37,995 bases of DNA from Candidatus Altimarinota bacterium (GTDB lineage: Bacteria; Patescibacteriota; Gracilibacteria; JANQMV01). A program made the position numbers and the translations under genes. A model generated the notes under the pieces. That model saw only the letters and a program-made list of their open reading frames with translations, was not told where the DNA came from and did no database searches. The stretch is taken from the NCBI GenBank assembly GCA_028279865.1, contig JANQMV010000055.1:1-37995 (forward strand). The letters are read 5' to 3'. This document shows positions 26,614-29,307 of the stretch, piece by piece; the first letter of the stretch is position 1, and the number at the start of each line of letters is the position of its first letter.

Positions 26614-29307
26614 TTAAAGTTCTTTTCTCAACTTCTGCATCAATCCCTTCCCCACAACTCCAATTAATTCCCCGTCTCCTGCATTTTTAACTCCTTCCAC
26701 AGAACCAAAGCGCTGTAAAAGTTTTTGTTTCATTTTCGGACCTAGCCCCACAATTTCATCCAGTTTTGAATGCACCATTCTCTTACTTCTCAACTCTCGA
26801 TTAAATGTCACAGCAAAGCGATGAGACTCATCACGAATACGTTGAATTAAAAAAGAAACTTCCGAATTTGCCTCAACCGGAATCGGATCTTTTTGATCAG
26901 ACGTAAAAATTTCTTCTTCCTTCTTCGCCAAACTGATTAAAGGAACTTTTAGCTTAAATTCGTCCAAAGCTTTTTGAGCCATCCCAAGTTGCCCTTTTCC
27001 TCCGTCAATTACAATTAAATCAGGCTTTGAAGCAAACGATTTATCAATATGTTCTTGCCGAGATTTGATGTAGGCAAAATATTTAGAATCCGGTTTCTGA
27101 CAATATTCACAAGTTTTGACATGATCTTTAAGCTCTTTTGGTAAATCATAAATTTCCTGAAAGCCTACTTTAAAAAGCAAAGGAGCCTTATCAGAAGAAG
27201 TCACGGCATAAACTTTGGATAATTTAGAACGCCTGATTAATTCAGTACACAGAAGCGTTGCAAAACCTTTACTTCTCTCTTTTTTGTGTACCCACAGTGT
27301 TCCTAATGCTTTCACTTTTTCCGAATAAGTTTTAATCCGAACAAAACCAACAACTTCCTTAGGTTGTTGCTGGTTCAATGTCTCTGACTTGAACCTTAAA
27401 CTCTCCTGAGTTGTATCCGCTTGGTTTGTGGTCAATGAATTAATAGGCATATCTTGAGGTTTTGAACCCCCTGTATCCTTGCAGGACACTGCCCCCTTGC
27501 TAAGGGGGTCTTTTTTAAACGCAGTTTTTTCAATTCTTTCAGCTTGAGGCTTGCAGCTTAAGGCTTGCTTCTCCAAAATCAAAAAATCTTTAACCTCCAA
27601 ATCTTCATCATCTAATTTTTCCTTTTTAACAATTTTTTCAACAAATTCTAAATCCGCTTTCTTCCCTTTACGCAATTTATAATCATCACCCAAAAGCAAC
27701 TTTTTATCATCAAAAGCAATATATTTCAATCTACGCTCCAAAACTTCCTGCATTGCCTTAAAATCATCAATTTCCCCTTCCTCCAAAGAGCGTAGCTTAA
27801 AATGGCGGTAATCAGAATTTTTCGGTTTGCCGTTATGGAAAACTACCATTGACCCAACCGTATCTGTCCCTCCCAAATGAGAAATATCATAACATTCCAT
27901 TCTTCTGATTTTCTTCTCCACACTAAGCACATCCGAAAGCTCATCCAAAAGTTTTTCATAATCAATCGTACGTTCCTCCATCCATTTCAGACGATTGGCT
28001 TTTGCATAAGACATTGAATTCTTTTCCGCCAAAGCAATTAACGCATTTTTCTTACCCTTTTGTGGTACAAGCAATTTGACGTTTCTACCTGCTAATTCTG
28101 AAAGAAATTGCTTAAATGCCCTTAATGCTCCCCGCCTTTCCAAGGAGGGGTTGGGGGAGGTATTAACTGCTGGTTCAATGTCTCTGACTTGAACCTTATT
28201 GTTTTTTCTGTTGCTCTCCTGTGCAACATCCGCTTGGTTACTTTGAACTTTCAACTTTGAACTTTCAACTTCAGCGCTGACAACACCCCCCTGCCCCCTC
28301 AAGGGGGTTTCTTTACCAAGCGGAATCGGCAACAAAATCTCCTTTGGAATATCCGTTGCAGCAGCATAGTATTGCTCTAAAAAAGCTTCTAAAATTTGAG
28401 CTTCACCTTCCTGATCAAGCGACTCCCCCTCTACAATAAATTTTTCTTGTCCGATCATTTTTCCATCACGAATCTGTAATAATGTAAAAAATGTCTTGCC
28501 TAAATCCTGCACAAAACCAAACACATCCCGTTCTTCAAAATTGGCTTCGGAAATGTATTGCTTGTCCGTGATATTTTGTACTGCAAAAAGGTTATCACGA
28601 AGTTTTCCGGCTCTTTCAAATTTACGCTGAGCAGCAGCTTCTTGCATTTCGACTTTAATCTGCTTCTCAATCTCAGCAGTTTGTCCTTTCAGAAATAAAA
28701 CAATTTTATCAATAATTTTACGGTATTCTTCCTGACTGACTTTTCCAATACAAGGTCCCAGGCACTTTTTGATATGATACTGCAAACAAGGCAAATTACG
28801 CGCTACGCCTTTAACCACAACTGAACCTTCTACATCCCGAATATCATAATTACAATCACGAAACGGAAAAATCTTGGTAAGTAGCTTCAGAGTTTTATCT
28901 ACACTGGATTTACTTGTTTTCGGTCCAAAATACTTCGCTCCGTCTTTTTCCATCTTGCGAACGACCATCACTCGTGGATAATCTTCGTTTAAAGTCACTT
29001 TGATATAAACAAAATTCTTATCATCCTTCATTAAAATATTGTATTTGGGTCTTAACTCTTTGATAAAATTTGTTTCCAGAATAATTGCTTCTTGCTCCGT
29101 ATTAGTTTCAATCCACTCAAAATCCGCAGTATTTTCAACTAATTTCTGATTTTTAGGACCGTGATTGGCAGATTTTTGAAAATAATTTTTAACTCGACTT
29201 TTCAAATTTTTTGCTTTACCGACATAAAGCACCTTTCCTTTTTTATCCAGAAATTTATAAATCCCCGGGGAAGTCGTCAGGTTTTTGAGCTTGTCTTTAA
29301 TACTCAT
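26614..29307 (-). CDS. uvrC: Excinuclease ABC subunit C with embedded GNAT domain and repeat-derived inserts
   Basis: UvrC makes both incisions in nucleotide excision repair. Seen in order: GIY-YIG nuclease (about 10-90, GIYKFLDKKGKVLYVGKAKN), Cys-rich segment (DCNYD..CLQYHIKKCLGPC), UVR helix pair (about 205-240), the RNase H-like nuclease (ECYDISHLGGTDTVGSMVVF, VIDGGKGQLGMAQKAL) and the C-terminal (HhH)2 (VGLGPKMKQKLLQRFGS). The 897 residues exceed the usual 600. The extra is a GNAT domain (about 541-735) inside the nuclease domain and two low-complexity inserts, about 333-396 and 581-650, encoded by palindromic repeats. Frame is intact, with no TGA. Whether the inserts are kept at RNA or protein level is unknown. 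Confidence 0.95.
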   Translation of the reverse strand: MSIKDKLKNLTTSPGIYKFLDKKGKVLYVGKAKNLKSRVKNYFQKSANHGPKNQKLVENTADFEWIETNTEQEAIILETNFIKELRPKYNILMKDDKNFVYIKVTLNEDYPRVMVVRKMEKDGAKYFGPKTSKSSVDKTLKLLTKIFPFRDCNYDIRDVEGSVVVKGVARNLPCLQYHIKKCLGPCIGKVSQEEYRKIIDKIVLFLKGQTAEIEKQIKVEMQEAAAQRKFERAGKLRDNLFAVQNITDKQYISEANFEERDVFGFVQDLGKTFFTLLQIRDGKMIGQEKFIVEGESLDQEGEAQILEAFLEQYYAAATDIPKEILLPIPLGKETPLRGQGGVVSAEVESSKLKVQSNQADVAQESNRKNNKVQVRDIEPAVNTSPNPSLERRGALRAFKQFLSELAGRNVKLLVPQKGKKNALIALAEKNSMSYAKANRLKWMEERTIDYEKLLDELSDVLSVEKKIRRMECYDISHLGGTDTVGSMVVFHNGKPKNSDYRHFKLRSLEEGEIDDFKAMQEVLERRLKYIAFDDKKLLLGDDYKLRKGKKADLEFVEKIVKKEKLDDEDLEVKDFLILEKQALSCKPQAERIEKTAFKKDPLSKGAVSCKDTGGSKPQDMPINSLTTNQADTTQESLRFKSETLNQQQPKEVVGFVRIKTYSEKVKALGTLWVHKKERSKGFATLLCTELIRRSKLSKVYAVTSSDKAPLLFKVGFQEIYDLPKELKDHVKTCEYCQKPDSKYFAYIKSRQEHIDKSFASKPDLIVIDGGKGQLGMAQKALDEFKLKVPLISLAKKEEEIFTSDQKDPIPVEANSEVSFLIQRIRDESHRFAVTFNRELRSKRMVHSKLDEIVGLGPKMKQKLLQRFGSVEGVKNAGDGELIGVVGKGLMQKLRKEL
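27103..27687 (-). other. GNAT acetyltransferase domain inside uvrC
   Basis: Residues about 541-735 of UvrC read as a GNAT fold: N-terminal DDYKLRKGKKADLEFVEKIV, a second-helix stretch ending FLILEK, then after the repeat insert VVGFVRIKTYSEKVKALGTLWVHKKERSKGFATLL (strand 4, then the acetyl-CoA loop) and the C-terminal APLLFKVGFQEIYDLPKELK with CEYC. The ending resembles N-acetylglutamate synthase-like GNATs. It is placed between RRLKYIAFDD and SRQEHIDKSF of UvrC. Confidence 0.75.
27358..27567 (-). repeat. Repeat-derived insert 2 in uvrC
   Basis: This in-frame block (residues about 581-650) falls in a surface loop between GNAT strands. It contains 31 bases (27368-27398) identical to 28168-28198 in insert 1, a palindrome GGTTCAA..TTGAACC, plus a C-rich inverted repeat around 27490-27512 (GCCCCCTTGCTAAGGGGG). 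Its codons give low-complexity polar residues. Confidence 0.8.
28120..28311 (-). repeat. Repeat-derived insert 1 in uvrC
   Basis: This in-frame block (residues about 333-396) lies before the nuclease core. It includes the 31-base identity with insert 2, a further shared piece (CTCTCCTG...ATCCGCTTGG), a tandem GAACTTTCAACTTT stretch and GC-rich arms (CTCCCCGCC...GGAGGGG). Its peptide has NTSPNPSLERRG, the translation of a common dispersed intergenic repeat. Confidence 0.8.

Follow-up and report, generated by a model that had tools for sequence, protein, structure and literature searches.

A GNAT acetyltransferase fold within the nuclease domain of UvrC in Peregrinibacteria-like bacteria

The window, by which we mean the whole stretch of 37,995 nucleotides analysed here, encodes a UvrC protein in which a complete GNAT acetyltransferase fold interrupts the RNase H-like nuclease domain, and related domains occupy the same loop widely in the same Peregrinibacteria-like class, a group of very small and largely uncultured bacteria. 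We consider it probable that this arrangement goes back to an old GNAT insertion into a permissive UvrC loop, where the domain possibly acts as a tethered acetyltransferase in those lineages that have kept it intact and as a scaffold in those in which it has eroded.

The window's UvrC, an open reading frame of the minus strand, scores 527.5 bits against TIGR00194 (cut-off 285.45). Its features, listed from the N-terminus to the C-terminus, are as follows.

26614–29307, minus strand: uvrC, 897 amino acids, the only copy in the genome (TIGR00194)
29038–29268, minus strand: GIY-YIG domain, residues 14–90 (Pfam PF01541, 45.7 bits, cut-off 22.6)
28111–28320, minus strand: repeat-derived insert 1, residues 330–399, ahead of the RNase H domain (repeats D1, D2 and D5)
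27697–27933, minus strand: first half of the RNase H domain, residues 459–537, with the putative catalytic Asp474; its last helix ends in RRL at 525–527 (Pfam and alignment)
27061–27687, minus strand: embedded GNAT domain, residues 541–749, from β1 to the last strand (Pfam, AlphaFold model and fold match)
27355–27570, minus strand: repeat-derived insert 2, residues 580–651, within the β2–β3 hairpin of the GNAT (repeats and model)
27259–27276, minus strand: acetyl-CoA pyrophosphate loop RSKGFA, residues 678–683 (alignment of 72 inserts)
27175–27180, minus strand: Leu710-Leu711, where most relatives have Tyr-Tyr or x-Tyr; site of the putative general acid (alignment)
26773–27021, minus strand: second half of the RNase H domain, from PDLIVIDGG, with the putative catalytic Asp768 and His829 (alignment)
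26617–26766, minus strand: C-terminal helix-hairpin-helix, residues 848–897 (PF14520, 18.8 bits, below the cut-off of 27; alignments with 2nrt and 3c65)

A UVR (UvrB-binding) motif is matched weakly at residues 217–245 (PF02151, 19.5 bits, cut-off 21.5). Asp474, Asp768 and His829, which we take to be the RNase H catalytic triad of UvrC, are the same in every one of 22 aligned UvrC C-terminal halves (alignment A2), and to judge from its sequence the nuclease is left intact by the insertion of the GNAT. The distance from the RRL end of the last helix to the PDLIVIDGG strand is 234 residues in the window's UvrC, compared with 9–36 residues in those of the class members compared that have no domain at this site.

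Pfam divides the RNase H domain into two pieces and places PF00583 (Acetyltransf_1) between them, at residues 650–701 (26.0 bits, cut-off 20.7, E = 1.2e-5). Two other Pfam GNAT models remained below their cut-offs on the insert (PF13508, 21.2 versus 27; PF13673, 16.9 versus 23.6), and a profile built from 16 other UvrC-embedded GNATs matched the window's site with an E-value of 2.2e-20. An AlphaFold model of residues 440–897, computed from 22 sequences (mean pLDDT 81.7), contains the GNAT elements from β1 (543–547) through the last strand (742–748), with pLDDT values mostly of 84–94 in the GNAT blocks and of 71–78 near the end. A VIA-align search with this model returned GNAT chains with Z-scores ranging from 13 to 16.7 over 127–146 residues, and for the UvrC part a match to 8b0q (Z = 23.2, r.m.s.d. 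= 1.7, 164 residues). The domain match, the model and the fold matches all bear out the proposal of an earlier note that a full GNAT fold lies within the nuclease domain. The span given there, 27103–27687, is too short at the end of the domain, since the last strand runs on to position 27064.

The highest GNAT score (Z = 16.7, r.m.s.d. = 2.3, 138 residues) was obtained for N-acetylglutamate synthase (NAGS; PDB code 2r8v), followed by 3d2p (Z = 15.4), ArgA 5yge (Z = 14.5) and GNATs of a general kind at about 14. When the relative L143 was analysed in the same way, 2r8v again matched (Z = 16.2) with other GNATs at 15–16; the likeness to NAGS is only suggestive, because in this relative other GNATs score nearly as high. 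Membership of the insert in the NAGS family was rejected (NCBIfam PRK07757, an amino-acid N-acetyltransferase-like model, 16.5 versus a cut-off of 154), and the resemblance to NAGS-like enzymes proposed earlier stands as a structural one.

Repeat insert 2 separates strands 2 and 3 of the GNAT and is largely disordered in the model, where pLDDT drops below 50 at residues 594–638 and 640–645. It shares repeats of 31 nucleotides (100%) and 26 nucleotides (81%) with insert 1 at 28168–28239. The window's UvrC is a nested build, with a repeat inside a GNAT inside an RNase H domain, and the repeat does sit, as had been noticed, in a loop of the GNAT itself. All Pfam matches within the insert are to families of the GNAT type, with no mobility enzyme among them.

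The acetyl-CoA loop of GNATs follows the motif [RQ]xxGx[GA], and a tyrosine ahead of GF commonly, though not universally, serves as the general acid. The loop of the window's domain, RSKGFA, is intact, in agreement with what the earlier note had read from the sequence, and leucine stands at the position that is tyrosine in 54 of 72 inserts. With the loop present, the tyrosine absent and a repeat in the hairpin, the window's domain looks part-way to a scaffold; its chemistry may also be independent of that tyrosine.

A UvrC match was found in 185 of 192 genomes of the class, and in many of these the match to TIGR00194 is interrupted near position 444. When UvrC loops were surveyed across the class, on loci among the matches listed, the loop was resolved at 113 of 114 loci; it had fewer than 50 residues in 22 and at least 90 in 91, a fraction that is biased upward in that sampling favoured inserts and UvrCs of the UGA code without a gap in the match were mostly left out. 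A GNAT-core profile matches 79 of the 91 long loops. Nine inserts without a profile match (L016, L025, L029, L062, L064, L075, L077, L086 and L100) appear from their position and relatives to be eroded GNATs, and some of them could be other domains. The type-A GNAT insert, to which the window's belongs, is present in at least 17 families, and in a GNAT-core search at E = 1e-13 a member of the family turned up in 84 of the 192 class genomes, for the most part in frames of UvrC size. Of 379 genomes sampled across the phylum, 48 had a GNAT match at E = 1e-10; judged from match span and frame size, 36 of these lie in UvrC (34 in the same class, two in family f47) and the other 12 appear to be free-standing. 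The domain is found in two of the three genomes of the small class to which f47 belongs. Among 26 loci listed for named genomes with one generic pattern, at least five from Candidatus Peregrinibacteria match the GNAT query over its whole length, and a sixth named-genome locus (L161) carries an insert of domain size at the same point and matches the query only in its flank. As a separate observation, many other families of the phylum encode short UvrCs of about 400–500 residues whose TIGR00194 match ends near position 230; in G352, the one case with a second match listed, the match resumes near 359. The middle of these short proteins thus seems to be missing.

To our alignment of 72 type-A inserts, made without family f7, L007, L022 and the class inserts missed by the first patterns, we owe a view of how the active site has fared. 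The acetyl-CoA loop is kept in 45 inserts and lost in 27. Tyrosine is present at one or both general-acid sites in 58; loop and tyrosine occur together in 43 inserts, neither in 12, and the loop without the tyrosine in only two, one of which is the window's. The most conserved columns include the β5 Tyr (69 of 72), a Lys early in the domain (67), the GF pair (67 and 66) and a Pro (62), and the Arg and Gly of the loop rank 34th and 35th of 150 columns. Selection was assessed with a pairwise codon test on 23 pairs, of which L043/L054 was left out because one of its two inserts was misdelimited; dS was saturated in many pairs, and the 13 of the other 22 with a finite insert dS gave insert dN/dS values of 0.03–0.42. 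The insert changes faster than the UvrC core in 19 of 22 pairs, and eroded inserts, such as those of f15 and f8, have dN/dS values of 0.14–0.42. The insert is under purifying selection, looser than that on the nuclease, also where the loop has been lost. A difference in rate between intact and eroded inserts was considered and rejected, as their dN ratios overlap.

In the explanation that we favour, a GNAT would have entered the RNase H (5′-incision) domain in a Peregrinibacteria-like lineage, at the loop that leads from its last helix to its fourth strand. In the RNase H fold this helix-to-strand loop emerges on the face opposite the catalytic site, and for that reason a domain could be added without blocking incision. 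The GNAT would fold independently and, from RNase H topology, is expected to face away from the nuclease site; its inheritance would have been mostly vertical. Where loop and tyrosine are both kept, the domain most likely still works as an acetyl-CoA enzyme on its UvrC tether, and its substrate might be something nearby, for example UvrB, the UvrC that carries it or a different protein on the DNA. Catalysis would have decayed in many lineages, and in part in the window, with the fold remaining as a scaffold. We favour this explanation because of the fold, its breadth, the retention of motifs, purifying selection, the invariant nuclease residues and, as described below, trees that broadly follow the families, a second host in RecG and a tandem pair of GNATs in L222. 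Against it we count the 27 of 72 inserts without the loop (12 of them also without the tyrosine), the structural columns being the most conserved, the faster change of the insert, a clean loss in L041 and the missing tyrosine of the window.

A somewhat unlikely reading of the same data is that chemistry was lost early and only the fold was kept, as a structural or interaction domain (a spacer, or a contact to UvrB or DNA), with the conservation of the loop being residual. The way in which structural residues outlast the acetyl-CoA loop is consistent with this, as is the purifying selection on the eroded f15 and f8 inserts. In net positive charge, too, the inserts exceed the core about twofold (+5.5 versus +2.7 per 100 residues, n = 93). 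However, a mere scaffold has no need of a loop that most inserts have kept, nearly always with the tyrosine, and many UvrCs manage without any domain at the site.

The UvrC loop holds a range of other contents. In family f7 it contains nothing, a Lys-rich stretch, or GNATs that branch separately from those of type A (89/95; 90/83 in a second tree). In L007 (G006, f7) a nucleotidyltransferase takes the place of the GNAT (PF10706, 28.6 bits, cut-off 21), and in L022 (G008, f9) a serine α/β hydrolase (PF06821, 45.9 versus 22 bits); low-complexity or coiled-coil-like stretches occur as well. L222 (G141, f25) apparently has two GNATs in tandem, the second with a motif that is degenerate by eye. L041 (f5) has 24 residues in the loop and nests among GNAT-bearing kin (95*), which amounts to a clean loss. 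A single origin for everything at the site is rejected, both by the separate position of the f7 GNATs and by the other folds that Pfam assigns to L007 and L022. At another place, after DGGKGQLSS, the f22 UvrCs L101, L102, L104 and L105 carry a different, low-complexity insert.

Such variety might indicate a loop that tolerates almost anything, in which domains land and decay without benefit. The range of occupants (GNAT-B, nucleotidyltransferase, serine hydrolase, low-complexity or coiled-coil-like stretches, or none), the clean loss in L041 and the entry of small repeats into the insert as well all suit this idea. We nevertheless find it doubtful, as all testable inserts are under purifying selection, the domain has been kept across no fewer than 17 families, and active-site motifs are retained in more than half of the inserts.

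The RecG helicases of L217/L221 (G177:C2) and L238 (G545:C4) contain a related GNAT in the stretch that separates the DEQH motif from MTATPIPRT. These genomes represent two genera of f14, a UGA-recoded family whose UvrCs, where read, have no GNAT; that of G177 matches TIGR00194 unbroken. In a tree in which L217 represents the G177 copy and L178 and L031 were left out, both RecG copies group with free-standing GNATs of f11 in a single clade (99/99). The window's own genome also encodes a free-standing GNAT (L169, G000:C40:2418-2873), which as a query matched 48 of 192 class genomes at E = 1e-6. Its best class matches besides itself are f8 UvrC-embedded domains (41% over 141 residues), and it fell among the f8 UvrC inserts with 99/99 in one tree and only 85/78 in a later one, so that its placement is unsure. 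In RecG of L227 (f14), Pfam finds a DUF559 domain (PF04480, 110.9 bits) near TIGR00643 position 284, with repeat-like peptides rich in Pro and Gly on either side; RecG has such a domain in many f14 genomes, L228–L236 being similar by eye. It is conceivable, and we offer it tentatively, that the GNAT family is this class's DNA-repair-associated acetyltransferase, housed in UvrC in most families and in RecG in two or more genera of a family with no such domain in UvrC, and elsewhere a protein on its own. It would acetylate partners on damaged or branched DNA, with the UvrC loop as a docking bay filled with different enzymes.

Trees of the insert and of the UvrC core both group broadly by family. 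The core tree has f7 as one clade (100) and the window with f10 (86), and the insert tree also places the window's insert with f10, weakly (84/79). A further GNAT tree omitted 27 of 103 candidate rows as long, eroded or redundant, and L216 in that tree is a UvrC fragment at a contig end rather than a free-standing GNAT. With 28 rows tested, a single clade of all type-A UvrC GNATs was borderline (AU p = 0.0516), and therefore there may have been one insertion or a few. That borderline value, the related GNAT in RecG and the free-standing relatives in the class, including one in the window's genome, would be compatible with a mobile or parasite-like domain spreading between loops of host genes; a parasite-like domain had been raised in the earlier note. 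We consider this very improbable: insert and core trees agree broadly by family, the insert holds only GNAT families and no mobility enzyme, type A is spread over its many families, and the single clade of RecG copies and f11 GNATs indicates one event, not many. An artefact of assembly or annotation is practically negligible, as open frames recur across dozens of separate assemblies, some in one contig (G045, G102), and also in named Peregrinibacteria records, and we found no support for it.

A link between repair and acetylation is a hypothesis. The RecG-embedded GNAT of two genera and the purifying selection on the domain speak for it; the loss of the loop in 27 of 72 inserts, the absence of the tyrosine in the window and the unrelated domains at the site elsewhere speak against it. 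UvrC is a widely conserved repair protein, and a loop that took up whole, mostly unrelated enzyme domains, one of them kept so broadly, is a natural experiment in domain insertion. Every stage can be seen in it: intact enzyme, pseudoenzyme, remnant, replacement and clean loss. A domain that is kept, worn down or replaced according to lineage raises the question of a physical linkage of repair and acetylation. Should the intact forms prove active, these bacteria would have an acetyltransferase built into nucleotide excision repair, a link that we did not find in print. A full-text literature search likewise returned no report of a GNAT in UvrC, in keeping with the earlier note, to whose author such a protein was unfamiliar. 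Bacterial excision repair is the subject of a review (PMC7835731).

Among known systems, the closest for the host domain is the RNase H-like 5′-endonuclease of UvrC itself (PDB codes 2nrt and 2nrz; 8b0q from Deinococcus; 3c65 from Bacillus stearothermophilus), which has the same fold and catalytic columns. These solved structures align on either side of the insert and carry no intervening domain, whereas the window has its 234 residues with a GNAT. For the inserted domain, the GNAT domain of NAGS (2r8v, 3d2p) and the ArgA-like 5yge are the best structural matches, but they share only 17–18% identity with the window's GNAT, which, unlike them, sits inside a nuclease. A conserved insert of 16 residues has been described in Deinococcus UvrC (PMC5867870); it is likewise a lineage-specific insert in a surface loop, but it is not a domain and need not occupy the same loop. 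The RecG-embedded GNAT of the two f14 genera comes nearer, as a related GNAT of the same class in a loop of a repair or recombination enzyme; it differs in its host, a helicase, and in that its nearest kin are the free-standing GNATs of f11.
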